From Flammeovirgaceae bacterium UBA4659 (GTDB lineage: Bacteria; Bacteroidota; Bacteroidia; Cytophagales; Cyclobacteriaceae): 16,951 nucleotides of DNA. The notes below the pieces were generated by a model. The model was not told the DNA's origin, searched no databases, and saw nothing but the letters and a program-made list of their open reading frames with translations. The position numbers and the translations under genes were made by a program. Positions within the stretch are counted from its first letter, which is position 1, and each line of letters starts with the position of its first letter. This document shows positions 448-16,829 of the stretch, piece by piece. Location: NCBI GenBank assembly GCA_002405445.1, contig DHLV01000003.1, positions 1 through 16,951 of the forward strand, in the 5' to 3' direction.

Positions 448-455
448 CAAAAGTA
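448..455 (-). promoter_or_regulatory. Predicted -7 promoter element for the GTG-start gene
   Basis: On the - strand this reads TACTTTTG, a perfect match to the Bacteroidota -7 consensus TAnnTTTG. It ends 20 bp before the GTG start at 428. No TTTG -33 element is obvious upstream. Confidence 0.45.
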
Positions 456-630
456 TTAGCGAGATGTTACTTGAAATTTCATTAGGCGTGATGAAACGGT
501 TAAGTTTTTAACGGTGGATTAATATTTCTATAATCTTGAAACTACAATAAATTAAACCGAAAGGCGACTATGTCAGTCCTTTACCGCTGCGGATGACCTT
601 CAATTCTTCAATCAGCACCCAGGTGGTGAA

Positions 631-1280: not shown

Positions 1281-4200
1281 TCAGTTTATCTTCAATACTT
1301 TCTTTACAATTACCTGCTCACCCAGTTTCAACTTCAAATAGTATAATCCATTGGGTAGATTCGAGATGTCCAGTTGAAGGGTGCTTTTATCAATTAATCT
1401 CAAATTCACGTCACCGAATTCTCTGCCCAAGTCATCGATCAAATGGGTCTGTTTCGGCTCAATTGTTTGTTTCGATTTTATCCAATAAACCCCTTTGCCA
1501 GGGTTGGGGTACAACGTTAACTGATCGACAATCACATCATCAGCAGCTGTAATTCTTACACCACGACCTGTAATTGCCAGCGTACTCGTGCCAGATGTGG
1601 CATTTGTGCTAACTGTGAGGTTGCCGTTGTAATCTTGTGGGGCTGTTGGTGCAAAGGTTACCTGCACATTGAGCGATCCGCCCGCAGCAACCGTTCCGTT
1701 GGTTGGTGTAACGGTGTAACCTGCAGGGGCAGTGATTCCTGTAATCGACAAGCTAGAATTGCCGGTATTGTTGATGGCAATGCTTTTCTGAACCGATGGT
1801 TCGCCTACAATTACGTCACCGAATTGCAAGGTGCCATTTATTGCCAACACGCGCGACAGCGTTGTTGCTGCAATCACATTTGAATTAGTTGAAATCCCAT
1901 TTGCATTAGATGCACGTAAGCGATAGCTGTAACTCACCCCCGGAAGTAAACCGGTAACTGACGTGCTGGTGCCTGTAACGCTTAAGGCGTTAAACCCAGT
2001 TACGAAAGTCGTGAAGTTGTCTGACGACACATCTAGCAAATAATTGGCAGCTCCGGCTACTGTTGCCCAGTTGGCCGTAAAGCTGTTTGTCGATAAAAGT
2101 GTGGCTGCCGATGCCACTGGTGCAGTTAACACTGTTGCAGCGTTGACAACGTTAGAGGGTTGCGAATTACCATATACGTTAACAGCACGCACGCGATAGG
2201 CATAAGCCGTGTTTGAAGTTAGACCCGAAATGGCCACGGATGTCGTATTTGAATTCTGTGATGCAAAAGTCGTAAATCCGTTTGTAGAATACTCCACGAT
2301 ATAACTAGTCGCACCGGTTACGCTGCTCCAATTGGCCGTAAATCCTGCTGCAGAGATTTGTGTAGCTGCAGTTGCCACCGGGGCAGCCGCTACAGCAACA
2401 TTTTTTAAACTGTAAACAGAAACGGTTGAGCTTACTTCATTGCCAGCCAGCAACAACGCGTTACCATTAGGACTATCTTGCGCGGCAATGTAAACAATGC
2501 CTTCCGCACCACGGTCTCCACCCAACGCTGTTGGAGGCACTGTGCGCGAATTCAGATAGTCAGAGAAAATTGGTGCCGTAGGGTTAGTAATGTCAAACAC
2601 CATCACTCCGCCAATTCTCTCAAGACCGATAAATGCATAAGTTTTGCCCGCAATAACAGTTGTTACAACACCTTCAGGCTCTGGGCCCTTGTTGTCGCTG
2701 CGGTCTTTGATATTATTGTTAGAATGATCTGCGTTGAAGAGAGCGCCCCATGTAGCATCTTCAGAAACTATTTTTTCGATTGCGTTGCCGCTGTCAAATA
2801 CCAAAGATCCATTGTTTGCATTCCAGATGGCAAATGAACGGCCGCCTAATACTTGTATCTCATCAAACTGATTTGAGGAATTGCGATTTGCATTGGTGAC
2901 TTGCAAGCGACCCAAAGCCGAGTTTCTCTTCAAAATAGCTGCATTAGGGAAGGTAGAGGGATTTAATACATACCCGGCATCGGCAACTCGAACTTCCTCT
3001 GTGTAACCCGGTCCCGGTAAACCTGAACCGCCCGTCCAGTTGCGCGAGTCGCCTTCCGTTGCACCGATTACGTATGGAGTCCCTGCTATTTCAAAGTACG
3101 CTATGCCATCCGGCTGGTACATTCCTTTTACTGGCCAGTTAACGGGAATTATCTGGTTGTTAGAAACTCGGTCTGACGCGTCAAACGCATTGCCCGCAAT
3201 CGAATGGTCCTTTAATCCCAACGGGAAGATGCTGGTGATTTGCTTGTTCACAACATCCACGGCCACCATCGCGTTGTTTTCTTGCAGCACAACCCACGCT
3301 TTGCGCGAATCGTTGGAAAAGGTTACGTATTCAGGTTCGAAATCTTGAGAAACGGTAGCATTCGGCCCGTAAATTCTTATGCCCTGACTTCTCAATGAGG
3401 CGATTTGAGCATCAAAAGCGTTAAAGTTCAAAACAGAAACACTGCTTTGCTGTAACCCTATTGCACCGTTTGAGAGATCAATGATCGAAATGCTTCCCTG
3501 AGGGTCAAATGAATAGTTCGCATTGGGTTCGCCTTCGTCAGCAGTCATAACTGTTTTGCCATCAGGCGAAAATCCAACCATGTCAGGTTGAACACCTACG
3601 TTTACCTGAGAGATAAGTGCACCGTTGGTGTCTAAGAAAACAACTTTACCCGGCACAGAGGTGGTGGCGGTCGCTACTATGGTACCCTCCACCGCAACTG
3701 CTACAATTCCGTTTTTTACTGCCACACTGTTTACACCCGCACCGTAAGCGCTCATGTCAATTGAAGAAATAGCAGTGATGGAAGCTGGGTTTGAAAAATT
3801 GAGAATTTCCAATCTGTTTTGAATTGAGTTTACCACAAACAACCGCTGCGTGCCCGGATCGTGTGCAACAATTTCCGCAGAGGCTGAACCCGCGGTGCCT
3901 ACCTGATAGCTTGAAGTGTATTGGAATTCGATGGCTTTGCTGGGTGCCGTGGCTGTTTGATCATCATCTTTTATATACAAGATATGCGTGTTTGAGTTGG
4001 CCGAAGAATTGATAGTTGCGCCAATAGCGTTTGTTAACTGGAATACCGCGTAGCGGGTTGGTTGTGGTGAAGTGTTGTTAATCACAGCTACCTGAAACGA
4101 TTGAGTGTTATTGGTACTTCCTGCTGGGAACGTAAGTGTTTGGGTGGTGAAATTAATGTCTGTCCCCAACACGGCATTACCTGTATTCGCAACAGTAACA

Positions 4201-4397
4201 TCCACTGTAATGTCAGGCGTGGTGGTGGAGCGAGTTAAAATAACATTGATAGTTGCCGTGCCTGCGCTTTCCAGCACAGTGCTGTTAGCATCACTTACTG
4301 CACCTGACGCAGCAGGAGTGACTATTTGAAAGGCCACCGTCTGACCAAACGACCAGTGGCCTAACAGAATAAACGAAAAGAGTAAAATTTTCTTCAT
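1281..4397 (-). CDS. T9SS-exported multidomain protein with MSP130-like / choice-of-anchor-I core
   Basis: 1038 aa. Seen in order: a Sec signal peptide (residues 1-19, ending SFGQ); a Calx-beta-like domain (about 20-146, ending YIKDDD); a large beta-propeller-like domain (about 150-668) with SAEIVAHDPGTQRLFVVNS, VNSVAVKNGIVAVAVE, PDMVGFSPDGKTVMTADEGEP, GPEPEGVVT and DRGAEGI; two fibronectin-III repeats (about 672-757 and 759-848), each beginning APVA(T/S)AAT and containing FTANW; an ASH/choice-of-anchor-D-like Ig domain (about 853-953, GTLQFGDVIVGEPSVQ); and a C-terminal T9SS type A sorting domain (about 959-1038, LYPNPGKGVYWI ending VIVKKVLKIN). The core matches the bacterial family related to sea-urchin MSP130, often annotated as alkaline-phosphatase-like; no enzymatic activity is proven from sequence. 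It should cross the outer membrane by T9SS and be attached to the cell surface or released. It heads the probable operon with the lipoprotein at 807-1247 and has a repeat-containing promoter at 4420-4488. Confidence 0.88.
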   Translation of the reverse strand: MKKILLFSFILLGHWSFGQTVAFQIVTPAASGAVSDANSTVLESAGTATINVILTRSTTTPDITVDVTVANTGNAVLGTDINFTTQTLTFPAGSTNNTQSFQVAVINNTSPQPTRYAVFQLTNAIGATINSSANSNTHILYIKDDDQTATAPSKAIEFQYTSSYQVGTAGSASAEIVAHDPGTQRLFVVNSIQNRLEILNFSNPASITAISSIDMSAYGAGVNSVAVKNGIVAVAVEGTIVATATTSVPGKVVFLDTNGALISQVNVGVQPDMVGFSPDGKTVMTADEGEPNANYSFDPQGSISIIDLSNGAIGLQQSSVSVLNFNAFDAQIASLRSQGIRIYGPNATVSQDFEPEYVTFSNDSRKAWVVLQENNAMVAVDVVNKQITSIFPLGLKDHSIAGNAFDASDRVSNNQIIPVNWPVKGMYQPDGIAYFEIAGTPYVIGATEGDSRNWTGGSGLPGPGYTEEVRVADAGYVLNPSTFPNAAILKRNSALGRLQVTNANRNSSNQFDEIQVLGGRSFAIWNANNGSLVFDSGNAIEKIVSEDATWGALFNADHSNNNIKDRSDNKGPEPEGVVTTVIAGKTYAFIGLERIGGVMVFDITNPTAPIFSDYLNSRTVPPTALGGDRGAEGIVYIAAQDSPNGNALLLAGNEVSSTVSVYSLKNVAVAAAPVATAATQISAAGFTANWSSVTGATSYIVEYSTNGFTTFASQNSNTTSVAISGLTSNTAYAYRVRAVNVYGNSQPSNVVNAATVLTAPVASAATLLSTNSFTANWATVAGAANYLLDVSSDNFTTFVTGFNALSVTGTSTSVTGLLPGVSYSYRLRASNANGISTNSNVIAATTLSRVLAINGTLQFGDVIVGEPSVQKSIAINNTGNSSLSITGITAPAGYTVTPTNGTVAAGGSLNVQVTFAPTAPQDYNGNLTVSTNATSGTSTLAITGRGVRITAADDVIVDQLTLYPNPGKGVYWIKSKQTIEPKQTHLIDDLGREFGDVNLRLIDKSTLQLDISNLPNGLYYLKLKLGEQVIVKKVLKIN

Positions 4398-4419: not shown

Positions 4420-4488
4420 CGAAAGTAAAACATTCATCAAGGCCAGATTTAAATCAAGCATTAACGAATTATTAAGCTGCTGTTACTC
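4420..4488 (-). promoter_or_regulatory. Promoter of the T9SS protein gene: -7-like element plus three 11-bp-spaced TTA repeats
   Basis: The - strand reads TACTTTCG at 4427-4420, one mismatch from the -7 consensus TAnnTTTG. Farther upstream, the + strand shows TTAACG at 4461, TTAAGC at 4472 and TTACTC at 4483, exactly 11 bp apart. The first TTA is 34 bp from the end of the -7 element (4427 to 4461). There is no TTTG -33 element between, which fits an activator-dependent promoter. The same layout recurs at 12409-12477 and 15422-15479. An 11-bp direct repeat is the usual operator geometry for OmpR/PhoB-family regulators; the identity of the regulator is inference. Confidence 0.55.
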
Positions 4489-4687
4489 CATTAATAAAAG
4501 AAAAGAAGGCAATGGGGAGATAGAACAAATTCAGACAACGTAACGGTCGCTGAGTTATTCAACTCATGTAAGTATTGCGTACTGTTAGTTTCTCTTTCTA
4601 ACGCGTCTTCAACTTCATAACAATTCCATAAACTTTAGGAGAAAACCCGTTCGCTTTCAAAGGTGTTATTTGCAGCAAATCTGTCCC

Positions 4688-6829
4688 ATGAGTTGGTTTG
4701 CGAAGTGGAGCATCCGCGCCAGGTTGTTGATGGCGTTCCTTTCAGTTTTGTTATTATCAGGTGTACTCATCTATTTCAGCATCCGGTCCATTCAGTCGAT
4801 CACATTTTTTAAGTCAGTAAACGAAAAGCTCGAGACACTGGAACTCAACCTAACTGTGGAAGAACTTGCCGTGAAGGAGTTTATTTATGAAGGCTACAAA
4901 ACGGCAGAGTTCCATCAACAAAATATCAGCCCTCAAATTGACCACTTCTATACCAGCAATAAGAAGTGCCAAGAAATTTTGGCATTTCTACAACTTCATG
5001 GCAGCGAGCATCAATCACAGTGGGCAGAACTAAAGTCCACCCAAATTGCAATCCAAAAACAATTTGATTCATTGAGACAGCTTTTCAAAGCGCGAGGCTT
5101 TAAAGACTTCGGGTTAGAAGGGTCGCTTCGAAAAGCCGTGCACGAAGTTGAGAACAGCCAGGCTAAGTTTGATAAAACGTTGTTGCTTACGCTAAGGCGA
5201 AACGAAAAGGACTTCTTCCTCCGCAAGGATCTAAAGTATCAAAGGGATTTTGCCAAAAATCTGGAACTTTTTGTCTCAAATATTTCGCGTGATGCCACGC
5301 TGACACAGTTGGCTGAAAAGTATGGAAAGGAATTCAATCGCGTGGTAGAACTGGAACAGACAGTCGGTTTAACGGAGAACGCTGGCATCAGAGGAAGGCT
5401 GAAATCAAACCTTGAAAGATCCAGACCACAATTAAGCCAGGTTAAGACCGAAATGATTGCCGCGAATGAAACGGCTGTGCTCAAATCTCAGTCAAGGCTT
5501 ATGATCATGTTTGTGATACAATTGGCATTGGGTATCACATTGGCTGTTTCCTACAGCAGAATCATTTCGCGGTCAATCAAAAGCATACGCGATGCAATGA
5601 CTAGTTTGGCGGCTGGCAAGTTTCCTGAAAAATTAAAAATTGTTTCGTCAGAAGAAATCGGCCAGACTAAGGCTGCCCTTAACCAATTGGTGGATCGCGT
5701 TCACTCCGCTGTAGATTTCGCCTCTGCATTAGGTAATGGCGATTTGAATGCCACGTATAACGAAGCCTTTCGACAAGATGTGTTGGCGGTTGCACTCATT
5801 CAAATGCAAGACAAAATCAGAGAGGCAGATGACCGACAGTTTAAAATCAATTGGGTGAATGAAGGTATTGCCCAAATTGCCAATATCACTAAAAACGAAA
5901 GGCAAGGTTTAGAAGAATTATCTCAGGTGATTCTGGCCAATTTGGTGAAGTATGTGGGTGCGAACCAAGGAGTTCTGTATTCCCTTGAAACCACCACGCT
6001 CCATGCAGTCGCTCACTTTGGCACCTCAAAGCAGGGCACCAACAAAAATGCAATTGAATTAGGCGAAGGTTTGGTGGGGCAATGCGCAGTGGACGGCACA
6101 ACCCAAAATCTCACTAATTTACCGAATCAATACTTCAAGATATCCTCGGGACTCGGAAACACATCGCCCAAAAACGTGGTGTTGGTGCCATTGCTACTGG
6201 AGAGAAAGGTATATGGAGTGCTGGAAGTAGCGAGCCTGGAAGTACTTCCCCTATACAAGGTCGCGTTTCTTGAACGTGCATCAGAAAGCGTGGCGCTCCT
6301 AATTTTTAACCGTCAAACATCAGTGGTCACAGCACAACTGCTGGAGCAAGCAAAAGAAAAAACATTTGCCCTACAACAACAGGAAGAAGAAATGCGGCAA
6401 AACATGGAAGAACTGGTTGCCGTACAAGAGCAACTGCGCAGGCGCACTGCCGAATTTGAGACGAGGGTGAAACTGATCAATAGTGCCGGCATTGGTATAG
6501 TTGAGTTCGACCAGAAAGGCATGGTACTTCAAGCTAACCAAAGCTTCTTAAGCAAATCGGGCTATTCTGAATGGGAAGTAGTCGGTCGGGAAATTGAATC
6601 ATTCTTCTTGCCAAAAATTAACTTGAGCGATTTGTTGGTCGAACTTAAAACCAGCGAAACACAGCATATAGAACTTGAACTAAGTTCGAAGACTGGCAAA
6701 TCATCTGCCGTAAAAGTCACTTGCACTGCTCTGGCAAACAACAATGGCGATACGCTACGCATTGTTGCAATTATTGTTGATCTGCCGACTTATCGGCAAC
6801 GTGTTGTTACGTTAACAGAGTTTGAATAG
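4688..6829 (+). CDS. Membrane sensor with HAMP-GAF-PAS domains and no output domain
   Basis: 713 aa from ATG 4688. An upstream in-frame TTG at 4670 would add six residues, but the ATG start gives MSWFAKWSIRARLL, which lines up with MRKFFEFNSIRSRML of the neighbouring kinase, so I chose it. Seen in order: TM1 (about 9-33); an all-helical extracytoplasmic domain with RGFKDFGLEG (about 136-145), LRRNEKDFFLRKD (about 168-180) and GLTENAGIRGRL (about 228); TM2 (about 271-290); a HAMP and a second HAMP-like segment (about 290-375); a GAF domain (about 388-545); a coiled coil with EEEMRQNMEELVAVQEQL (about 546-595); and a C-terminal PAS domain (about 596-710). No histidine kinase, GGDEF, MCP-signalling or DNA-binding domain follows. 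The R-R-x-E-K-D-F-x-L-R motif is common in helical bundle sensor domains of chemoreceptors and kinases. It may work through a partner, perhaps the adjacent kinase. The ligand is unknown. Confidence 0.8.
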   Translation: MSWFAKWSIRARLLMAFLSVLLLSGVLIYFSIRSIQSITFFKSVNEKLETLELNLTVEELAVKEFIYEGYKTAEFHQQNISPQIDHFYTSNKKCQEILAFLQLHGSEHQSQWAELKSTQIAIQKQFDSLRQLFKARGFKDFGLEGSLRKAVHEVENSQAKFDKTLLLTLRRNEKDFFLRKDLKYQRDFAKNLELFVSNISRDATLTQLAEKYGKEFNRVVELEQTVGLTENAGIRGRLKSNLERSRPQLSQVKTEMIAANETAVLKSQSRLMIMFVIQLALGITLAVSYSRIISRSIKSIRDAMTSLAAGKFPEKLKIVSSEEIGQTKAALNQLVDRVHSAVDFASALGNGDLNATYNEAFRQDVLAVALIQMQDKIREADDRQFKINWVNEGIAQIANITKNERQGLEELSQVILANLVKYVGANQGVLYSLETTTLHAVAHFGTSKQGTNKNAIELGEGLVGQCAVDGTTQNLTNLPNQYFKISSGLGNTSPKNVVLVPLLLERKVYGVLEVASLEVLPLYKVAFLERASESVALLIFNRQTSVVTAQLLEQAKEKTFALQQQEEEMRQNMEELVAVQEQLRRRTAEFETRVKLINSAGIGIVEFDQKGMVLQANQSFLSKSGYSEWEVVGREIESFFLPKINLSDLLVELKTSETQHIELELSSKTGKSSAVKVTCTALANNNGDTLRIVAIIVDLPTYRQRVVTLTEFE

Positions 6830-6832
6830 AAG

Positions 6833-8659
6833 TTAAGCGCCCGTCAATACGTTGTTTTCGTTCTCAATCAGCTCAAAAAGGTTGGGCAACTGTACGTGAA
6901 ACGAAGTGCCAACCCCGAGCTTTGACTCAACCGAAACGTTGCCTTTGAGCTTGCTTAGCGTCTCCATAAAAATAAACAACCCCAAACCACTTCCTTTGGA
7001 TGTTACGTTTACGCGATAAAACATGTCAAAAATTTTACCGATGTGCTCTTCCGCAATGCCTTGACCGTTATCGCTGAAATCCAACTTCATCGTATCTTCA
7101 GTTATTTTAACAGAGACCTTAATAAAAGAATTAACCTTCGTATGGTCTGCATAACGAACTGCATTTGACATTAAATTGTTTAGCAAGATCATTACCCTCC
7201 CACGGTCAGAATAAAACGGAACCTCCTCGACAACTGTGACATCCATTTCAATTCTGTTAGCTCCCTCCGCAAACCGATGATTCTCGTATACTTCGTTTAG
7301 CAACACTCGTAGGTCAATTCGTTCTTGGCGTACTTCTAGCCGCTTATTCTTCGAGTAACCCACTATTTGCGAAATAAAATCTTCCATCCGATGGATGCTG
7401 GCTTCCATCATCACAAAGTATTCATCCAAATTCGTTGTTTTACTTTCCTTTTTAGCCAAATACAATAGCCCCAATAAAGAAGTGAGTGGAGACCTTAAGT
7501 CATGGGCTGTACTATATAAAAAGCTGTCCAATTCACGATTCAGCTTTTTCAACTGATGGTTACGCTGCCGCAGCAAGCCAGACTTCTTCTCCAACTCCTT
7601 TACGTTTCTGCTTACTTCGTCAATCAGCTTGTTAAACGAAGATGTCAACGTATTGATTTCCTGTGCGGCTTTTCCCTGCGAAAACTTAATTCGTATGACG
7701 TTGTGCTCACCTACCGCTTGGTCAATAACGCGCGATAATCGTGCAATGGGTGACGACAATTTTTTTGCCAGCCAAAAACTAGAAAACAAACTGATGAGCA
7801 CTGCAACAGTAATAAGCGAACCATAAAACAAAAATGCTTTTCGCTGGGTGGCTGTAGCCGTCTGACTTGAGAATTCAGACAGCTGGAAAAAAGTAGTGCC
7901 TAGCTGCCCAGTAAGTTTGTTAAGCCTGCTACGCAAGCCACTGTTGCTATCCAGCCCAATAGTATTGTGAATGGCAACCAACTGGTTAAACGTCTCGACA
8001 TACGCATTTAAGTGTTGTAATGTATGCAGATCGATTTTGGAAACAGTAAGCTTGGCGCGAAGTTCATTGGCTAAGTCGTTGAGCCCAATTACATATTCAA
8101 AATCGTGGCGTAAGAAGAAGTCTTTTTCTAGCCTGCGCAATGAAAGGATCTCTGCCATCGAAAGGCTTTGTCCCTTTCGCTCCAGCAGATGCGCATGAGA
8201 ACGCATTACCCCCTCAAGGCCGAAGCCGCGGAACCCGCGTTTGAACAATAACTCTTCTAGTTGATTGAATTCTGTATTGTACTGCGTAAGCGTTCGCTCA
8301 ATCAGCTCAAAATGCGAGACGATGCCTTCAGACTGGTCGCGCAAAATACCTAGTGTTCCGGTCAGTTTGATCTTAATGAGTCGGTTGAGGCTGTCCCTCG
8401 TTTGCAGGTAGTGGCTTTGGCGGGTTCGGAAGTAAACTGTATCAATTACACCGAGATCAAAAAAATCGTTATCTGACTTAATCAAGATCAGCACGTTTGC
8501 CTGCAGTTGATTGATGCTGCGATCAATGTTGGCTGTGTACCGAATGTTATCTAATGTAAACAGCGAAATAATGGCAATCAAAAAAATAAGGAACGTAAGC
8601 GCCAAGAAGCCCGCAAGCATTCTGCTGCGGATGGAATTAAACTCAAAAAACTTTCGCAT
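6833..8659 (-). CDS. Membrane histidine kinase, HAMP-HisKA-HATPase
   Basis: 608 aa. TM1 (about 12-36); a helical sensor domain homologous to that of the convergent neighbour, with RGFRGFGLEG (about 139-148), LRRLEKDFFLRHD (about 174-186) and GLDSNSGLRSRL (about 234); TM2 (about 275-297); HAMP (about 297-355); coiled coil; HisKA with STAHDLRSPL and the predicted phospho-acceptor H386; and HATPase_c with N-box LLNNLMSNAVRY (about 493), G1 DNGQGI (about 530), F-box MFYR and G2 GSGLGLF (about 557). All catalytic motifs are intact. It lacks a receiver domain and no response regulator gene is in the window, so it is an orphan kinase locally. Its stop codon is 3 bp from the stop of the + strand sensor gene. 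A perfect -7 element lies at 8671-8678. Confidence 0.92.
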   Translation of the reverse strand: MRKFFEFNSIRSRMLAGFLALTFLIFLIAIISLFTLDNIRYTANIDRSINQLQANVLILIKSDNDFFDLGVIDTVYFRTRQSHYLQTRDSLNRLIKIKLTGTLGILRDQSEGIVSHFELIERTLTQYNTEFNQLEELLFKRGFRGFGLEGVMRSHAHLLERKGQSLSMAEILSLRRLEKDFFLRHDFEYVIGLNDLANELRAKLTVSKIDLHTLQHLNAYVETFNQLVAIHNTIGLDSNSGLRSRLNKLTGQLGTTFFQLSEFSSQTATATQRKAFLFYGSLITVAVLISLFSSFWLAKKLSSPIARLSRVIDQAVGEHNVIRIKFSQGKAAQEINTLTSSFNKLIDEVSRNVKELEKKSGLLRQRNHQLKKLNRELDSFLYSTAHDLRSPLTSLLGLLYLAKKESKTTNLDEYFVMMEASIHRMEDFISQIVGYSKNKRLEVRQERIDLRVLLNEVYENHRFAEGANRIEMDVTVVEEVPFYSDRGRVMILLNNLMSNAVRYADHTKVNSFIKVSVKITEDTMKLDFSDNGQGIAEEHIGKIFDMFYRVNVTSKGSGLGLFIFMETLSKLKGNVSVESKLGVGTSFHVQLPNLFELIENENNVLTGA

Positions 8660-8670
8660 AACCCAGCCTG

Positions 8671-8678
8671 CAAATCTA
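8671..8678 (-). promoter_or_regulatory. Predicted -7 element of the histidine kinase gene
   Basis: The - strand reads TAGATTTG, a perfect TAnnTTTG match, ending 11 bp before the ATG at 8659. No TTTG -33 element is visible upstream; a TTA-type repeat pair (8703 and 8714) lies there instead. Confidence 0.5.
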
Positions 8679-8702
8679 ACTGGTATTAGGTGGCTAGGTT
8701 TA

Positions 8703-8719
8703 TTATGAAATTGTTACGG
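8703..8719 (-). promoter_or_regulatory. TTA repeat pair shared with the TonB receptor promoter
   Basis: The + strand has TTATGA at 8703 and TTACGG at 8714, 11 bp apart. The 14-mer TTATGAAATTGTTA (8703-8716) also occurs exactly at 15463-15476, in the same orientation, upstream of the TonB receptor gene. Here the distance from the -7 element is 25 bp rather than 34, so function is less certain. Confidence 0.3.
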
Positions 8720-8741
8720 TTAGCAACTTGTATATCCTTGG

Positions 8742-9299
8742 CTATTGGGCAATAGCTTTCTGCTTCCACATTCGTTCTCTATCGTCAAAATAATTCCTGT
8801 CGTCCGGAAACTCAATGTATTCCTCCTGAGATTTCGACCTTTCAAAGATGCTTAAGTCTTCATTCTTTACCATTCTGTCAAATAGAAAAAAGCTCTTCTT
8901 ATGCAATTCATCAGGCTTCATTTTAAAGGTTCGAAAAACTTCTTTGTAATACATTAGTTCGCCTTTCTCCGTCAACACAAACTTACCAGCATTGGCCACG
9001 CGTTTTTCAACCAAGCTGGGAGCCCTGCGACTAACCATAAAAAAGCAAGTATCACCTTTGATATAGAAAGCATCCAATTTGTGAAGTGCTTGCTGCTCGC
9101 GATAGTACTTATCATAACCTTTATAAAATCGTTCTGGAAATGTAAGGCCTTCGGGTTGGCGGGCAACGTAGCGAATGATTGTCCATAAAATAGCATCTTG
9201 TTGTTGGGGAGTAAGGTGCTCACTAGGTTGATATCCTTTTTTTCCACATGATGAAGCACCAAGTAGCAAAAACACAATAAACAAGATTCTTAGATTCAT
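8742..9299 (-). CDS. Lipoprotein of unknown function
   Basis: 185 aa. Lipoprotein signal peptide with lipobox A15-S16-S17-C18, followed by G-K-K, which is not a surface-export signal. The mature part is mixed helix and strand with many aromatic and charged residues: LTPQQQDAILWTIIRYVARQPEG near 29-51, FYIKGDTCFFMVSRRAPSL near 78-96, GELMYYKEVFRTFKM and FPDDRNYFDDRERMWKQ near the C-terminus. I recognise no named domain; the overall look is of a conserved Cytophagales periplasmic lipoprotein. The -7 element at 9304-9311 ends only 4 bp before the ATG, suggesting a leaderless or nearly leaderless transcript. The stop codon lies inside a perfect 7-bp inverted repeat (8741-8756). The start is supported because the signal peptide would be lost with any later methionine. 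Confidence 0.75.
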   Translation of the reverse strand: MNLRILFIVFLLLGASSCGKKGYQPSEHLTPQQQDAILWTIIRYVARQPEGLTFPERFYKGYDKYYREQQALHKLDAFYIKGDTCFFMVSRRAPSLVEKRVANAGKFVLTEKGELMYYKEVFRTFKMKPDELHKKSFFLFDRMVKNEDLSIFERSKSQEEYIEFPDDRNYFDDRERMWKQKAIAQ

Positions 9300-9303
9300 G
9301 GCG

Positions 9304-9311
9304 CAAATCTA
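9304..9311 (-). promoter_or_regulatory. Predicted -7 element of the 185-aa lipoprotein gene
   Basis: The - strand reads TAGATTTG, a perfect TAnnTTTG match, ending 4 bp before the ATG at 9299. A TTTG (CAAA at 9328-9331 on +) lies 16 bp upstream and could be the -33 element; it overlaps the T-rich tract after the 9340-9352 hairpin. Confidence 0.5.
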
Positions 9312-9323
9312 TTACTTCAATAA

Positions 9324-9367
9324 AAAACAAAAAAGAGACTTGCCAATGGCAAACTTGTCCGAAGTTT
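9324..9367 (-). terminator. Likely terminator of the 375-aa lipoprotein gene
   Basis: Inverted repeat TTGCC (9340-9344) / GGCAA (9348-9352) with a 3-nt loop, followed on the - strand by a T-rich tract down to about 9324. A second overlapping inverted repeat, AAACTT (9351-9356) / AAGTTT (9362-9367), lies closer to the stop codon. Both stems are short, but their position after the stop at 9396 and the T-tract support termination. Confidence 0.45.
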
Positions 9368-9395
9368 TGTTTAACCTATATAATTAGGCTAAGAG

Positions 9396-10523
9396 CTATT
9401 CGGTAAAAAAAGAATTAGCCGTAAATTTCCTAGGGGCTAAAATTGAAAATTCCATGACATCTCCACTAACTGGAAACCCGTTCTTTAAAGTGACTTCAGT
9501 TGTAGAATAAGCATGCCCGAAGGTATCATAAGTCGTTTTATATGAATTCACATAAAGTTCAATAACTCTTTCGGACTGTGAAGTAAATCTTCGTACAAAT
9601 GTTCCTGTATAAACTCTATTCATTACTTCTCCATAAAGTCCGTTCATATCTCTAGGATACCCATGAAGTTCTGAGTAAATGCCTACGGACTGATTCGTAT
9701 TCATAGAGATACCTGCTTGCATCTCAACGCTTCCCTCAGTACACCATGCTTGAATTGATAATTTATATTCAAATGATATATCAATTTCTGTATTTGGCTG
9801 AAGTGGTGGAGAAAATCTAACAAAGTATTTCTTCGTATCATTATAATCAGAACTATAATTTGCTTGCGGTATCAAGGTTACAGTATACCTTTGACCTATT
9901 CCTATTAAAACGGGTTGAAGGGTTCTTGAAATTGAGTTAGCCCTTGACCCATCAAAGAGTGCGCCCGGATTAATAAGAGGATCTGGATTACTATCCCAAG
10001 TGGATATTCTAATTTGCGGTGACAGCTGAGATATGCCAGAATAGCTAATTCTTAAGGTTAGAGTTAATTGGTTGATGGGTGATTGTAGGCAATAGCCATA
10101 AGCAGCAACATAAATTTTTCCATCAGGCTGTACGCTTGCCGTAAGGCTACCTTGAGAGCTGCCAAAATTTTGTACTGTAGCACTTACTAACTTCAATTGA
10201 GAATTTTGATTCAAAAGCTCAATTAAAAAGTCTGAGGATGAATCAATACCCCCAGGAAGTGGTGGTGTACTGATGATTCTTATGGAATACAAACTTATCT
10301 TTCCATTCCCATTATTGGTGTCATATGAATCCAATCCTGGAGCAGAGGCAGTAAATGATTGACCTTGATAATTTGCTATTGGACCACAATCAATTCTACC
10401 AAACTTGGACACTACAGTTCTACTTTCAACTTCCTTGACTTCCTGAGCAACCTTCCTATCGATATCAGACGTACATGATATTATGACTAATGAGGATACC
10501 ATTAGCTGAATAATTTTTTTCAT
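9396..10523 (-). CDS. AT-rich lipoprotein of unknown function
   Basis: 375 aa. Lipoprotein signal peptide MKKIIQLMVSSLVIISC with Cys at residue 17, followed by T-S-D-I-D. The mature protein is beta-rich and full of Ser, Asn, Thr and Tyr. It contains CGPIANYQGQSFTASAPG near 47-64, SVQPDGKIYVAAYGYCLQSP near 130-149 and WCTEGSVEMQAGISMNTNQ near 259-277. Four cysteines remain in the mature chain after the lipid-anchored one. I recognise no family. Base composition is lower in G+C than its neighbours: four 60-base lines I counted by hand gave 84 G/C in 240 (35 percent), against 24 to 31 per 60 in three lines of other genes. That fits recent acquisition. The ATG is only 26 bp from the large terminator hairpin (10550-10585) of the gene upstream, and no -7 element is visible in that gap, so how it is transcribed is unclear. 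Confidence 0.7.
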   Translation of the reverse strand: MKKIIQLMVSSLVIISCTSDIDRKVAQEVKEVESRTVVSKFGRIDCGPIANYQGQSFTASAPGLDSYDTNNGNGKISLYSIRIISTPPLPGGIDSSSDFLIELLNQNSQLKLVSATVQNFGSSQGSLTASVQPDGKIYVAAYGYCLQSPINQLTLTLRISYSGISQLSPQIRISTWDSNPDPLINPGALFDGSRANSISRTLQPVLIGIGQRYTVTLIPQANYSSDYNDTKKYFVRFSPPLQPNTEIDISFEYKLSIQAWCTEGSVEMQAGISMNTNQSVGIYSELHGYPRDMNGLYGEVMNRVYTGTFVRRFTSQSERVIELYVNSYKTTYDTFGHAYSTTEVTLKNGFPVSGDVMEFSILAPRKFTANSFFTE

Positions 10524-10549
10524 ATGCTACGCGTTTGCATGCGTGTTCA

Positions 10550-10585
10550 AAAAAAAGACATAGTTGGTTAACTATGTCTTTTTTT
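10550..10585 (-). terminator. Strong Rho-independent terminator of the beta-helix lipoprotein gene
   Basis: A perfect 16-bp stem (10550-10565 with 10570-10585) with a GGTT loop. The core AGACATAGTT/AACTATGTCT is flanked by an A-run on one side and a T-run on the other, so the hairpin can work in both directions. It sits 13 bp past the stop of the - strand gene at 10599. Confidence 0.9.
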
Positions 10586-10598
10586 CAAAATAAACAGT

Positions 10599-12389
10599 CT
10601 AATACACCTTATTGATTGGTTGGAATTCAGACCATCCATCAGTCCAGTCGGTAGCTCCAAATGCACCTCTGTAAGTAATCGTCTTGTCAAAGAAAGCACC
10701 CAATTTCGCATTTGTAAAGTTGGCTGTTGCATTCATGTTGTTTGCACCAGCAACACCTGCTGTCAACACAAAACTTGGATTTGAAGGATACGTAGCAGGA
10801 GTAGAGGCACCCCAGAATAATGCTGTTGGGATACCTAAATCTGAGACTTTCGAAAGAGAAGCAACATCTGGTATGGTGGTAAAGTAACTATTATTATTGG
10901 AGGTCCAATAGGTTTCCAATGCTGCCGCATTGCCACCGCTCAAACCTGTGATGAAAACTCCATCGGCTGCTGATGAAGATGTACCAATTGCAGGAGGTGC
11001 ATTTGCAGCTGCGGGGTTATAAGGAACCGTTAATACATTGTATTGATGAACCGCAGAACCGGACGTTAAGTTATCCAGCGTACCTTGATCGTCAATCCTC
11101 AAACCAATCCTGAAACCAGAGAAAAATGAATTAAAAATGGAAATATTTGATCTTCTGCGAATATGTAATGCATTTTGATAGTTGGCAGAAATACCTCTGC
11201 CTTGGTTATCTCGTGGGCCAAGAACTGTGATATTGGAAAACACTCCACTCGTACAACCTGTTTTGGTAGTGCCATCGCAGATATTTGCTACTGCATCACC
11301 GTTACCTTGGTTATCGCTTTCAAATGCATTGGAACCCGATTGATCAGCAGATGAAACGTTTCTTACCACAATACCCCACTGTACGTTACCGGTCCATCCG
11401 AAATCAGTATCAAAGTCATCATCCCAGGTAGAAAGCGAGATCAAACGCTTAGCGTTAACCTTGCCACCAAACCATTCGAAACCATCATCACCACCATAAG
11501 ACACCTGCACGTTTTCAATAATTGTTGCATCACCCAAAGCACCCATCGTTAAGCTATTTGTTTCGTTGTTAGGCGTTAATTCAATACCTGCATATTCGAT
11601 GCGCGTGAATCGCATCGTTCCATTGTTTTCACCCGCGCCTGCGTTGATGTTTGCTGCTCCAACGGTTCCATATGGCTGGTTGGCGATACCTTCCGCATTT
11701 GGCCTGTTTGCTTGGTTCACGAAGGCATTTCCCGTCCAAGAAATTCCACCCCAGTCACCACGATCGCGTTCGCCCGGGCCTTGGGAAGATGTAAATACTA
11801 CAGGATTTGTGGCGGTACCGTTACAATTCAAAATACCACCTGGTTGAATGATCAACAAACCTTTTGTGGCCTTATCACCTTTGATCACCGTGCCGGCTGG
11901 AATAGTTAACGTCACACCATTTGGTACTAGCACCGTTCCTTTAATCAAATAAGGAGTTCCTGCAATGAGCGTCCGCGTTGTCAAAGTACCCACCAGTTCC
12001 ACTACCGGGTTACCCACTGTCAAGGTGAAGTTAGCAATTGTGGAAGGGAAATTCTTTGAATCTGTAGCTTGAAAAGAGATAATGATTGTCGAGCCGACTA
12101 CTGCCGAAGCCGGGATTGTATACGAATATGCCTGTGTGAACGACTTCGCTCCACCCATGTCAAAAGATTCAACATTCGTTCCGGCAACATACACGTCCAG
12201 AAACTTACCGCCATTTGGCGCATTTACTGTTGCTGTGATCGTAACGGTACCACCCGGAATATTTTGCCCGGTAGACGCATCCAAGGCAACTGTGGCTGCA
12301 GGTTGAATTTTCTCCTCCTCTTTGCAGTTTTGCAAAAGCAAAAGTGCAGAGAAGGCACCGATTAGAGTTAGTAATTTTATGTTTTTCAT
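10599..12389 (-). CDS. Surface lipoprotein with right-handed beta-helix domain, TonB-receptor partner
   Basis: 596 aa. The signal peptide ends LLLLQNC (Cys22); asparagine before the cysteine is an atypical lipobox. The residues after it, K23-E24-E25-E26, match the lipoprotein export signal K-(D/E)2 described in Capnocytophaga, so surface display is likely. Then an Ig-like domain (about 30-125) and a parallel beta-helix domain (about 128-590) with NGVTLTIPAGTVIKGDKATKG, GERDRGDWGGI, SYGGDDGFEWFGG, the acidic WDDDFDTDFGW and RRRSNISIFNSFF. The family is widespread in Bacteroidota, is sometimes mis-annotated as a multidrug transporter, and commonly sits beside a TonB-dependent receptor, as here (12595-15405, same strand upstream). 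Its acidic motif could bind metal; that is inference. It probably cooperates with the receptor in capturing a nutrient at the cell surface. It has its own repeat-containing promoter (12409-12477) and terminator (10550-10585). Confidence 0.8.
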   Translation of the reverse strand: MKNIKLLTLIGAFSALLLLQNCKEEEKIQPAATVALDASTGQNIPGGTVTITATVNAPNGGKFLDVYVAGTNVESFDMGGAKSFTQAYSYTIPASAVVGSTIIISFQATDSKNFPSTIANFTLTVGNPVVELVGTLTTRTLIAGTPYLIKGTVLVPNGVTLTIPAGTVIKGDKATKGLLIIQPGGILNCNGTATNPVVFTSSQGPGERDRGDWGGISWTGNAFVNQANRPNAEGIANQPYGTVGAANINAGAGENNGTMRFTRIEYAGIELTPNNETNSLTMGALGDATIIENVQVSYGGDDGFEWFGGKVNAKRLISLSTWDDDFDTDFGWTGNVQWGIVVRNVSSADQSGSNAFESDNQGNGDAVANICDGTTKTGCTSGVFSNITVLGPRDNQGRGISANYQNALHIRRRSNISIFNSFFSGFRIGLRIDDQGTLDNLTSGSAVHQYNVLTVPYNPAAANAPPAIGTSSSAADGVFITGLSGGNAAALETYWTSNNNSYFTTIPDVASLSKVSDLGIPTALFWGASTPATYPSNPSFVLTAGVAGANNMNATANFTNAKLGAFFDKTITYRGAFGATDWTDGWSEFQPINKVY

Positions 12390-12408
12390 GCTTTTAAATT
12401 TTTCGCCA

Positions 12409-12477
12409 CAAAAGTACTCTCAGGATTTAAAGCATAGAACCCCGTTCGATTAACAATTTATTACGCGAATGTTACCA
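12409..12477 (-). promoter_or_regulatory. Promoter of the beta-helix lipoprotein gene: -7 element plus three 11-bp-spaced TTA repeats
   Basis: The - strand reads TACTTTTG at 12416-12409, a perfect TAnnTTTG -7 element, 19 bp before the ATG. Upstream, the + strand has TTAACA at 12450, TTACGC at 12461 and TTACCA at 12472, exactly 11 bp apart. The first TTA is 34 bp from the -7 element (12416 to 12450), as in the promoters at 4420-4488 and 15422-15479. Two more TTAACA copies lie at 12491 and 12497, out of this register. No -33 element is seen. Confidence 0.6.
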
Positions 12478-12538
12478 TTTTCATTTTTCGTTAACATTAA
12501 CAACACGTCAAGTAGTAAGAGCCGAGTTGAAGCATAAA

Positions 12539-12569
12539 AAATAGGGCGCACTTCCAGAGCGCCCTATTT
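12539..12569 (-). terminator. Rho-independent terminator of the TonB receptor gene
   Basis: Perfect 11-bp inverted repeat AAATAGGGCGC (12539-12549) / GCGCCCTATTT (12559-12569) with a 9-nt loop, 25 bp past the stop of the - strand gene at 12595 and followed on that strand by a run of T. It separates the receptor from the lipoprotein gene downstream. Confidence 0.9.
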
Positions 12570-12594
12570 CAACGTAAAATCAATCACGTTCTTT

Positions 12595-15405
12595 TTACTT
12601 ACCGTGATGAAATTTTACCGAAAAAGAAATTGAGTACTGTGCACCTATCCGATAACCTCTAATTAATGGATCACTGTTTTGAATTTCGCTGTCATTGGCG
12701 TTGTCTTGCTTAAACTGATAATTTGCATTGAGTAGGTTCTGAGCATTGAACTTGATCTCGTATTTCTTTTTGAACTGCTTTGCAATCTGCAAATCCAAAA
12801 TATTTCGCGGCATCTCGAACCAAGTAGGATACAACAAATCACCTACCGTGAAGATCCTCTGCCCAAAGACGTTATAGGCAACATTCGCAGAGAATCCATT
12901 CTCTTCGTCATTGTAATAGACGCCTACATTAACGATGTAGGGCGACTGGCCGGTTAGCGGGCGAAAACGTGCTTGGTTAGTAGCAGCAGCACCAACATCC
13001 ACTTCAGATTTGATAAAAGCAGCATTTGTGTTGATCGATGTGTTTCGTAAGAATTTTGAAACTCCCAAACTTGCCAAAGACTTTCTAAATTCTATTTCCG
13101 CGCCAACACTATAAGCCTCTGGTGAGTTTGCGTAAAAAAACTGGGGGCTCTCACCAACAATTTGATTGTATATCTCTATCGGATCTTTGAATGACTTATA
13201 AAAAGCACCAACGCTGAACATCTCACCTGGATTAGGATACATCTCATATCTCAAATCAAGATTATTAATAAATGCTGTCTTCAACGTTGGCGTTCCTACA
13301 ATATTCGCATCCACTTCGAACTGATAAAACAAGAATGGCGCAAGTTCTCTGAACTCAGGCCTGTTTAACGTTCGGCTGTAGGCGGCTCTGATCAACTCCC
13401 TCTCTGAAAGGTTAAAGGCCACATTTAAGAATGGAAGAGGCGCTAGCACCGTATTCTCCACATTTACGCCAAAAGCCTTCAGCTTTTGTACGTTGTTCTC
13501 AATCCTTACTCCGCCAGCGAGATCGAATTTGCCAACCGGCAGTGTGCCTCCAACATAACCCGCGGTGAGAAAATTTGAACCCGTGTAAGAGTCTGTTAAA
13601 TTAGTTCCCTCTTCGATCACTAGTCCATTATTTCGGCTAATATTTTTGGGAGCGAAAATATCTGAAATAGGCAATAATGCTAACTGCTGCTTAATTGTCT
13701 GATCAAAATTACCTGGATATAAATAGCTGATATATCGCGCATCGAAAGCCCTGGTTCGATACTCAAACAAATATCCGGCTTTAATTGAGGCGGTGCGTTT
13801 CTCTTTTGGATCACCGAACTTATGCTCAAAGTTCAAGCTGTGATTAAGTCCATCGTCATTCAAAGACGACCAGAACCTCCCCGTGTCAAATAGGTTGCTA
13901 TTCGGAGGTAACTGCATTTCGTAAGGGGTTTCTGTCCCTCTGTCAGCAATGTCACGAAACGTTCTAAACCTTCTGAAATCTGGTTCTCGCTTATTAATCA
14001 AATTGGCGCCAACAACCCAATTTATTTTATTTGAACTTCCTAATTCGTGAAAGCCTTGCAACTGGCCGGAATAAATAGACCGTTCTAGGTAGTAATAAGA
14101 ATAGTTCAGGCGATCAAAGTTTGGCTGTTGAATGAAATCATTACCTTCTCTGACGATTGTCCTGTTTTCCCCCAGTTGAACAAAAAAATTCTTAAACTCT
14201 AGTTTATGTCTGTCATTGAACTTAAACTCCCAATTGTGCATTGCGCTCACCCTTGTTTCACGCACATACGTATTATCAAAATATTTGAAGCGAGGTGTTA
14301 ACACACCGTTAGAAAACTCATTGAATCGATTAAACTCGGCCTGAAAGGTTTGGTAGGAATTGGAATAACCCACAGCGGTGAGGTTTTTGGCCGTAATCTT
14401 ACCTATTCTAAATGAATTGGATGTAGTTATGTTAAAGCCTAAATCAATAGGTGCTTGAAATTCTTTTAGTGCAAAAGTATTATTGAGAGACTTTCCGGCT
14501 CGTTCCCTATTGATGTCCGTTCTGTTGGTTGCCCTTAATGCAGTCGTGCTCGGAAAATCAGCGGGCAATTCTCTAAAGCCGTTGTCAAAACCCAACCAAT
14601 CTGTTGAACTTGTCTGAGAGGATCTAAAATTTTGAAAAGTCGTGCCATCTCTAAAACCAGCGCTAAAACCGACTTTGGTGAAATTTTCATTTTCAGGTTG
14701 TTTGGTTACAATCTGAATTACTCCACCCGCAAAATCACCGGGTAGTTCAGCTGTGCCAGATTTGTAAATAAGCATCTGATCAATAAAGCCAGCAGGAATT
14801 AAGTCAAATGAAAATGAACGCGAGTCTGTTTCAGTACTTGGCCCTATTGCCCCGTTAATCATTACCTGATTGTAACGCTGAGGCAAACCTCTTACTACCA
14901 CAAAACGATTATCAGCAATAGTAATACCGGGAACGCGTTGCGCAATCTGTGCAGCATCGCGATCTGGTAGTTTGGTTATTTGCTCAGCAGAAATTCCGCT
15001 TACCACTAGCTTAGCCTGCTTGATACCCTGCATTAACGAAACATCATTATTTACCTCTCGAGTGGCTGTAACCACAACTTCAGCAAGTTCTGCCACATCT
15101 TCTACCAAAGTGATGTTTACAGTGGTGCGCTTTCCGCTTTCGACTACAACATCTGCTACCGTTTGTGTTTTGTAGGCCACATAAGAGACTACCAATGTAT
15201 AGGTGCCGGGCTTAACGCTATTGATCACATAATTTCCTTCTACATCAGTTGAAGAACCAACCGTAGTTCCTTGAATAACCACGTTGCCGCCAATAATTGG
15301 CTCTTTGGTTTTTAAATCCACTACCGTGCCCGAGATAGTTCCCAACTGTGCCCATCCGTTAACGCTAGCCACTAATAAAAAAACCAAAACATAGAAATTC
15401 TTCAT
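12595..15405 (-). CDS. TonB-dependent outer membrane receptor
   Basis: 936 aa. Signal peptide (1 to about 19, GWAQ); carboxypeptidase-regulatory-like domain (about 22-108, GTISGTVVDLKTKEPIIGGNV, SSTDVEGNYVINSVKPGTY); plug domain (about 120-245) with EVVVTATRE, DAAQIAQRVPGITIADNRFVVVRGLPQRYNQ split across the plug, SFSFDLIPAGFIDQM and AGGVIQIVTKQ; then a beta-barrel (about 255-936) with RAAYSRTLNRPEFRELAPF and the late INAQNLLN-type segment KFNAQNLLNANYQF. It should import a substrate across the outer membrane using TonB energy. The substrate is not evident from sequence. No SusD-like gene is adjacent; the partner appears to be the surface lipoprotein at 10599-12389. A repeat-containing promoter lies at 15422-15479 and a strong terminator at 12539-12569, so it is transcribed as a single gene or with readthrough. 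Confidence 0.93.
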   Translation of the reverse strand: MKNFYVLVFLLVASVNGWAQLGTISGTVVDLKTKEPIIGGNVVIQGTTVGSSTDVEGNYVINSVKPGTYTLVVSYVAYKTQTVADVVVESGKRTTVNITLVEDVAELAEVVVTATREVNNDVSLMQGIKQAKLVVSGISAEQITKLPDRDAAQIAQRVPGITIADNRFVVVRGLPQRYNQVMINGAIGPSTETDSRSFSFDLIPAGFIDQMLIYKSGTAELPGDFAGGVIQIVTKQPENENFTKVGFSAGFRDGTTFQNFRSSQTSSTDWLGFDNGFRELPADFPSTTALRATNRTDINRERAGKSLNNTFALKEFQAPIDLGFNITTSNSFRIGKITAKNLTAVGYSNSYQTFQAEFNRFNEFSNGVLTPRFKYFDNTYVRETRVSAMHNWEFKFNDRHKLEFKNFFVQLGENRTIVREGNDFIQQPNFDRLNYSYYYLERSIYSGQLQGFHELGSSNKINWVVGANLINKREPDFRRFRTFRDIADRGTETPYEMQLPPNSNLFDTGRFWSSLNDDGLNHSLNFEHKFGDPKEKRTASIKAGYLFEYRTRAFDARYISYLYPGNFDQTIKQQLALLPISDIFAPKNISRNNGLVIEEGTNLTDSYTGSNFLTAGYVGGTLPVGKFDLAGGVRIENNVQKLKAFGVNVENTVLAPLPFLNVAFNLSERELIRAAYSRTLNRPEFRELAPFLFYQFEVDANIVGTPTLKTAFINNLDLRYEMYPNPGEMFSVGAFYKSFKDPIEIYNQIVGESPQFFYANSPEAYSVGAEIEFRKSLASLGVSKFLRNTSINTNAAFIKSEVDVGAAATNQARFRPLTGQSPYIVNVGVYYNDEENGFSANVAYNVFGQRIFTVGDLLYPTWFEMPRNILDLQIAKQFKKKYEIKFNAQNLLNANYQFKQDNANDSEIQNSDPLIRGYRIGAQYSISFSVKFHHGK

Positions 15406-15421
15406 ACCTATAACTTTGTCG

Positions 15422-15479
15422 CAAAGGTGGCACGGGCATGTTACCCAACAGGGTAGCCTATGTTATGAAATTGTTAAGG
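15422..15479 (-). promoter_or_regulatory. Promoter of the TonB receptor gene: -7-like element plus 11-bp-spaced TTA repeats
   Basis: The - strand reads CACCTTTG at 15429-15422, one mismatch from TAnnTTTG, 16 bp before the ATG. The + strand has TTATGA at 15463 and TTAAGG at 15474, 11 bp apart, and TTACCC at 15441, two periods earlier; the intermediate position 15452 (GGTAGC) is degenerate. The TTA at 15463 is 34 bp from the end of the -7 element, identical to the promoters at 4420-4488 and 12409-12477. Confidence 0.55.
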
Positions 15480-16699: not shown

Positions 16700-16829
16700 A
16701 CGTTCAACTATTATTTTCCAATGAAACGGCAATATTACAGATTTGTTGGGTAGCGATAAAGCCCAAATTCGCACGTGATGCCCGGAATGTTGGCGGCAGA
16801 TTCGGCATCGCAACAAATCCAAAATTCCT

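Follow-up and report, generated by a model that had tools for sequence, protein, structure and literature searches.

Repeats and register in three promoters

The stretch analysed here (the window, 16,951 nucleotides) is contig DHLV01000003.1, or C147 in our numbering, of Flammeovirgaceae bacterium UBA4659, a Bacteroidota-type draft genome of 3.9 Mb in 301 contigs. It carries three genes, all on the minus strand, for a TonB-dependent receptor, a putative surface lipoprotein and a choice-of-anchor-I protein, and the promoter of each contains a tandem array of 11-base-pair (bp) direct repeats at a regular distance from its -7 element. These arrays resemble Pho boxes, the sites of phosphate-starvation regulators, and their distribution and probable regulator are the subject of this study. 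The genes and elements are the following:

12595..15405, minus strand: TonB-dependent receptor, from domain matches (CarbopepD_reg_2 and Plug)
15422..15429, minus strand: -7 element CACCTTTG for the TonB receptor, placed alike with respect to the array in orthologues
15434..15477, minus strand: Pho-box-like array of four 11-bp units, on the gene strand TTAACAATTTC ATAACATAGGC TACCCTGTTGG GTAACATGCCC, separated from the -7 element by 4 bp
10599..12389, minus strand: putative surface lipoprotein, presumed partner of the TonB receptor, without Pfam match
12409..12416, minus strand: -7 element TACTTTTG of the lipoprotein gene
12421..12475, minus strand: in-phase array of the lipoprotein gene, on the gene strand GTAACATTCGC GTAATAAATTG TTAATCGAACG GGGTTCTATGC TTTAAATCCTG, units 1-3 canonical
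1281..4397, minus strand: choice-of-anchor-I protein with Fn3 and a type IX secretion system (T9SS) sorting tail
4420..4427, minus strand: -7 element TACTTTCG of the choice-of-anchor-I gene
4432..4486, minus strand: in-phase array of the choice-of-anchor-I gene, on the gene strand GTAACAGCAGC TTAATAATTCG TTAATGCTTGA TTTAAATCTGG CCTTGATGAAT, units 1-3 canonical

A first, sequence-only reading of the window had pointed out TTA triplets in 11-bp steps at 4461/4472/4483, 12450/12461/12472 and 15441/15463/15474, a common distance of 34 bp from 4461, 12450 and 15463 to 4427, 12416 and 15429, respectively, and a missing -33 TTTG at all three promoters. All these coordinates and distances were verified, and no TTTG occurs in the 45 bases upstream of each -7 element; the unit at 15452 is degenerate and reads GGT. 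The evenly spaced repeats are real. As the genes lie on the minus strand, the framing of that reading had to be corrected: read along the genes, the repeat unit is nTAAy, and all three promoters share a register that is best expressed as unit starts at 15 + 11k bp before the -7 octamer. The receptor promoter, for example, reads TTAACAATTTC ATAACATAGGC TACCCTGTTGG GTAACATGCCC GTGC CACCTTTG.

Scores combining the array with an in-phase -7 element are 20.5, 21.2 and 27.7 for the three promoters, and the maxima at six off-phase offsets are 5.1, 9.4 and 11.5. The unit matrix was trained on TonB-receptor promoters alone (n = 11), with the window's receptor promoter among them and its two other promoters excluded. 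That three matching registers would be hard to obtain by chance was borne out, since 400 dinucleotide shuffles per promoter reach the observed score 0, 0 and 1 times; the single tie equals the observed score exactly, and may be a failed shuffle giving back the original. Among the 10 window genes that were scored, only the three named ones and a gene at the left edge score above 17.

Period, phase and conservation of the array

In 10 further genomes of the family, where the receptor proteins are 38-48% identical, the orthologous promoters contain by eye a four-unit array 4 bp before the -7 element, as in L015: TTAATGAATTC ATAATTTTTTG GACCCGCTCAA TTAACATTAGC TATC GACTTTTG. In the genus neighbour, the units TTAACAATTTG GTAAAGCACAG TTAATCAACAG GTATTCTTATA precede the lipoprotein orthologue (L085), in phase as here and shifted nearer by one unit. 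Period and register are conserved in the orthologous promoters of receptor and lipoprotein alike. The genus neighbour contains no full-length copy of the choice-of-anchor-I protein, and hence no close orthologue of that promoter, and the promoter of the paralogue in the own genome is missing because its contig (C258) ends 14 bp past the gene start. Ten homologues from other genera (L115-L124) include one that scores above 20 (L124, 21.1) and four at 14.3-18.4 (L117, L118, L119 and L121); these boxes are suggestive only, and several called starts are doubtful.

The period and the phase were then quantified on promoter sets. The training set leaves out L010, almost identical to L009 there, and L021, a gene fragment; for L011, the script took an upstream array and not the promoter-proximal one seen by eye. 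The weights of the -7 score were set by hand. The lipoprotein set excludes L086-L096, which are second genes after a receptor, and keeps probable operon-second genes such as L112, which count as misses. The pstS set is without L059 (truncated start), the PhoX set without L351 (short upstream region) and the 34 control promoters without L003, L040 and L041; the receptor paralogues L022-L038 are part of no scored set.

The mean best score by period peaks at 11 bp, both in 18 lipoprotein promoters (9.3; next 5.7) and in 12 pstS promoters (10.0; next 6.0), and period 11 is not raised in the controls. When array and -7 element were chosen automatically and separately, and only regions above thresholds counted, the distance modulo 11 was 4 in 9/11 training promoters (own site included), 9 of the 16 lipoprotein promoters passing (of 18), 3 of the 6 pstS promoters passing (of 12) and none of the 6 controls passing (of 34). 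The combined score is likewise highest at offset 15: 15.4 for lipoprotein promoters (others at most 0.9), 7.8 for pstS (others at most 4.3) and 8.2 for 29 PhoX promoters drawn from the class (others at most 4.1). Controls are flat across offsets, and none of the 34 scores 17 or more. A score of at least 20 is obtained by 11/11 training, 10/18 lipoprotein, 2/12 pstS and 0/34 control promoters. When the window and 11 fetched neighbourhoods are taken together, 15 of 179 genes reach this level, of which 3 are those of the window, 9 are phoBR-type genes in Flavobacterium or Sphingobacterium phoB/phoBR neighbourhoods and 3 are others.

Phosphate genes, phoBR clusters and further window genes

The sequence-only reading would have taken the pattern at further envelope or nutrient-uptake genes as support, and it is present at PHO4 and DUF47 genes, at part of the pstS genes and at some PhoX genes. 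The own genome (G000, about 90% complete) and the genus neighbour (G017) have no PstS match, and the own genome has no PhoU match either; as PhoU and PstS were thus lacking as positive controls in the own genome, the PHO4 permease was used instead. Its promoter reads GTAACAATTCC ATAACATTGGG GTGCGAAAGCA GCGC TACCTTTG in the own genome and GTAACAAATCC ATAACATTGAG TCGCGAAAGCA GCAC TACCTTTG in the neighbour, with two canonical units in the same phase and scores of 14.1 and 13.0, respectively. The permease is a single open frame in the neighbour (L174, contig C8) and is split into two frames in the own draft (L176, contig C255), by a sequencing error or by real damage. The own genome also shows masked-base stretches inside open frames, at 372-1097 of L082 and 210-626 of L176.

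The pattern TTAACA-N5-TTAACA with a downstream -7 element was searched in 395 genomes of the phylum. A total of 51 genomes contribute 60 rows, of which two pairs overlap, and a backwards-pattern control gives 1. The phase is canonical in 28/60 rows and one base short in 16/60, mostly from one promoter family of Flavobacteriaceae. By eye, the 50 loci inspected, 48 of which have a downstream gene, include genes for DUF47, PHO4, a PstS-like protein, TonB receptors, DUF1573 and others. Pfam matches on eight protein pieces of these loci gave one PHO4, one DUF47, one receptor-type and one DUF1573 protein. The other 4/8 pieces had no match, and the labels given by eye to L145 (OprP-like porin) and L148 (phosphate permease) were left uncounted for lack of a Pfam match. 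A YceI-like gene of the own genome, retrieved by the phylum pattern, has no in-phase box. TTAACA arrays near the canonical phase also stand at DUF1573-type genes of several genomes (L147, L154, L173 and L183; Pfam-checked on L154 only).

In named genomes, a search for the motif at a gap of 20-21 gave at least 119 loci, at least 8 of which carry titles outside Bacteroidota; at least 102 have a downstream gene, and 17 have no downstream open reading frame by the rule used. Pfam matches among the downstream genes comprise at least 31 PhoU_div, 10 PHO4, 1 Na_Pi_cotrans, 1 PhoX, 22 TonB Plug, 3 TypA/BipA and 2 Cpn10. The DUF47/PhoU-like group is largely one orthologous Flavobacterium promoter, to be counted about once; with this group set aside, 12 of the 71 remaining downstream proteins of the loci listed are phosphate transporters or a phosphatase. 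The TypA/BipA GTPase genes L211, L213 and L224, from three Bacteroidota draft genomes, show the layout of TTAACA-N5-TTAACA plus a -7 element.

The array is also found in clusters encoding the regulator PhoB and the kinase PhoR. Among the six OmpR-type DNA-binding regulators of the own genome, the response regulator on contig C138, adjoined by a PhoR-like histidine kinase, is 53-58% identical to phoBR-cluster PhoB in six genomes searched, the next full-length match being at 42% among the matches listed; its closest Flavobacterium relatives are 53-54% identical. In three Flavobacterium genomes, the cluster consists of a glycosyltransferase (PF04101), a porin (PF07396), the kinase, PhoB, a TonB receptor and a lipoprotein (Pfam on one genome), in an order that matches the one given for Fjoh_0541-0546 of Flavobacterium johnsoniae in the accessible text (PMC8115612). 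In-phase boxes precede the porin OprP (27.9-28.2) and the TonB receptor (24.0 each) in F. aquidurense, F. phragmitis and F. notoginsengisoli, the receptor box being located in the phoB-receptor intergenic region; the lipoprotein has one in F. notoginsengisoli only among the three (20.0). Sphingobacterium phoB has an in-phase box of 25.1. The window lipoprotein is related to the phoBR-cluster lipoprotein of Flavobacterium (34% identity over 210 amino acids, E value 9e-30), and the window receptor to the one next to phoB in F. notoginsengisoli (24% over the full length, E value 6e-51). In the part of the F. johnsoniae study available, phosphate depletion raises the receptor, lipoprotein, glycosyltransferase and PhoB genes by 8.0, 9.9, 5.4 and 3.1 log2 units (PMC8115612). 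Boxes were read in three relatives and expression in F. johnsoniae, so that promoters and expression come from different species.

Within the window, a further box, absent from the sequence-only reading, stands upstream of the left-edge gene (3-428), which runs off the contig:

448..514, minus strand: fourth in-phase box, CCGTTAAAAAC TTAACCGTTTC ATCACGCCTAA TGAAATTTCAA GTAACATCTCG CTAA TACTTTTG

It scores 17.6, a level reached by 0/400 shuffles, and is kept in the genus neighbour (L081) with a score of 17.2. There, the counterpart of the left-edge gene, whose product has no Pfam match, heads by eye a sugar-modification-type cluster. The left-edge gene may belong to a phosphate-starvation operon for envelope remodelling. 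Beside the choice-of-anchor-I promoter, a divergent sensor-type gene (4670-6829, plus strand) has an in-phase array, ATAACAATTCC ATAAACTTTAG, with a score of 16.4, under the trusted level. Just upstream of the boxed TonB receptor lies a gene for a MoxR-type ATPase (AAA_3; 15710-16822), which has no in-phase box upstream (score 2.4); the available part of a study on Riemerella anatipestifer reports binding of its PhoP upstream of moxR (PMC9603813).

Probable assignment to PhoB, and its alternatives

At the level of sequence, a grammar is established that comprises the repeats, their period, their register, their conservation and their association with phosphate genes. The arrays have these features of a Pho box: direct repeats of 11-bp period; a fixed register beside the promoter in place of a -35/-33 element, with offset 15 highest and no -33 TTTG; and presence at phosphate-acquisition genes (PHO4, DUF47, Na/Pi, some PhoX, some pstS and Sphingobacterium phoB). 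They are very probably Pho boxes of a Bacteroidota type, with PhoB as the most likely binder. The sequence-only reading had proposed that one OmpR/PhoB-family regulator, acting on the 11-bp repeats, activates the three genes. The period, the register, the conservation in orthologues and the nutrient genes all support this proposal; from them we infer that PhoB binds, and that binding and phosphorylation would activate the three genes. The signal, which that reading had left unnamed, can be taken to be phosphate starvation, because of the PHO4, DUF47, part of the pstS, PhoX and phoBR-cluster promoters.

Several observations weigh against this assignment. The PHO4 scores of 13.0 and 14.1 are at about the level attained by 1/34 controls. 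The results for pstS are mixed, with 2/12 promoters at 20 or more and 5/12 at 14 or more, as are those for PhoX, where 5/29 score at least 18 in phase against 0-1 at each off-phase offset. Of the 15 genes scoring at least 20, 3 are neither window nor phoBR-type genes, and 8/179 genes attain 20 off phase, at one of six offsets. The receptor promoters of F. aquidurense and F. phragmitis score 23.1 and 22.7 off-phase, as against 24.0 in phase, which slightly lowers our confidence in PhoB. The motif is also found at DUF1573, TypA and Cpn10 genes, for which we know of no link to phosphate. There is no box within 200 bp upstream of phoB in the own genome or the genus neighbour. The C138 regulator ranks PhoB models first, with scores below the curated cut-offs (230.8 against 296.2 for TIGR02154; 224.6 against 270 for NF053854); the phoBR-cluster PhoB of F. 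phragmitis is likewise below both, at 215.2 and 205.1. In F. johnsoniae, neither OprP, the best-boxed gene of its relatives (log2 -1.3, p 0.25), nor PhoR (0.76, p 0.056) is induced according to the data available from that study (PMC8115612). Finally, according to the accessible parts of two Riemerella studies, the authors of one liken the PhoP motif to that of ArcA (PMC9603813), and in the other a phoPR deletion raises pstS 8-fold (PMC5399024), so that the role of Riemerella PhoP may differ.

The strongest alternative, which we regard as unlikely, would be another OmpR-family regulator, for example of the RprY type, with the same half-site spacing and with phosphate genes as only part of its targets. 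It could draw on the six OmpR-type regulators of the own genome, on motif-bearing genes such as DUF1573 and TypA and on the unboxed own phoB. It would, however, have to explain why independent phosphate genes (PHO4, DUF47, part of pstS, PhoX and the phoBR-cluster receptor) share the phase of the array, and why an array is located between phoB and the receptor gene in Flavobacterium. The TTAAC repeats could also be a general upstream element of Bacteroidota promoters, contacted by the polymerase or curving the DNA, as these promoters are A+T-rich and several unrelated genes have such arrays. This is disfavoured, and we consider it very improbable: the 34 controls lack both the period of 11 bp and the offset of 15 bp, and within the window scores above 17 are restricted to four of 10 genes. 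Chance, helped by A+T-rich DNA and by a register chosen after looking, as the sequence-only reading itself conceded, is scarcely credible given how rarely shuffles attain the scores (0, 0 and 1 of 400) and given that orthologues and other phosphate genes show this register again.

If PhoB is the regulator, phosphate starvation would lead PhoR to phosphorylate PhoB, most likely the C138 response regulator, and PhoB dimers would occupy the tandem 11-bp nTAAy half-sites, about one helical turn apart. With the frame of the array fixed to the -7 element of RNA polymerase (15 + 11k bp upstream of TAnnTTTG or CAnnTTTG), bound PhoB would always face the polymerase and could stand in for the -33 TTTG contact that is missing. 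Among the window genes, the TonB receptor, the surface lipoprotein, the T9SS-secreted choice-of-anchor-I protein and probably the left-edge gene would be switched on, and the outcome would be phosphorus scavenging at the outer membrane.

The PhoB box of Escherichia coli consists of 11-bp direct repeats in tandem beside the promoter, which replace the -35 contact, with the half-site CTGTCA. The present arrays are similar in their repeats and in standing in for that contact, but differ in their half-site, TAAC/TAAT, and in a register set to the Bacteroidota -7 element TAnnTTTG, with units at 15, 26, 37, 48 and 59 bp. The PhoP box of Bacillus subtilis, made of TTAACA-type repeats in steps of about 11 bp, has a nearly identical half-site, but belongs to a different phylum and sigma factor; the units here are placed at 15 + 11k to the -7 octamer.

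Within Bacteroidota, DNA affinity purification sequencing of R. anatipestifer PhoP identified TTTAACA as the best-conserved part of its motif, and its gel-shift targets include a TonB-receptor promoter, according to the parts of the report available (PMC9603813). This is likewise a Pho-type regulator on TTTAACA; those parts describe a pathogenicity regulon, and contain neither a promoter register nor a phosphate regulon (PMC9603813). For PhoB of Bacteroides fragilis, from the same phylum, gel shifts are reported to show binding to the pstC promoter; 'consensus' and 'binding site' are absent from the text available, in which we found no site sequence (PMC3547664). The F. johnsoniae Pho regulon includes the same gene types (TonB receptor with a pectin-lyase-fold lipoprotein, phoBR cluster and PhoX); it consists of expression data, and 'promoter' and 'pho box' are absent from the main text (PMC8115612). 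In a literature search that left subscription papers mostly uncovered and is not proof of absence, we saw no Pho box of Bacteroidota described together with its promoter register; the Riemerella motif comes nearest.

We consider it likely that a Pho box of this kind is phylum-wide, with nTAAy units at 15 + 11k, an often weakened -7 element (CAnnTTTG or GAnnTTTG), no -33 element and dependence on PhoB. In genera without Pst, it would govern PHO4 and TonB-receptor/lipoprotein pairs, so that phosphorus scavenging at the outer membrane could be read from sequence. It would provide a simple grammar for activator-dependent promoters built on the unusual -7/-33 promoter of the phylum, and offers an alternative reading of the 'ArcA-like' motif of Riemerella. 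Only a minority of the numerous TonB receptors that Bacteroidota combine with surface lipoproteins have a known substrate; a readable phosphate-starvation site would pick out the phosphorus-related ones from genome sequence, in species of soil, sea and gut.

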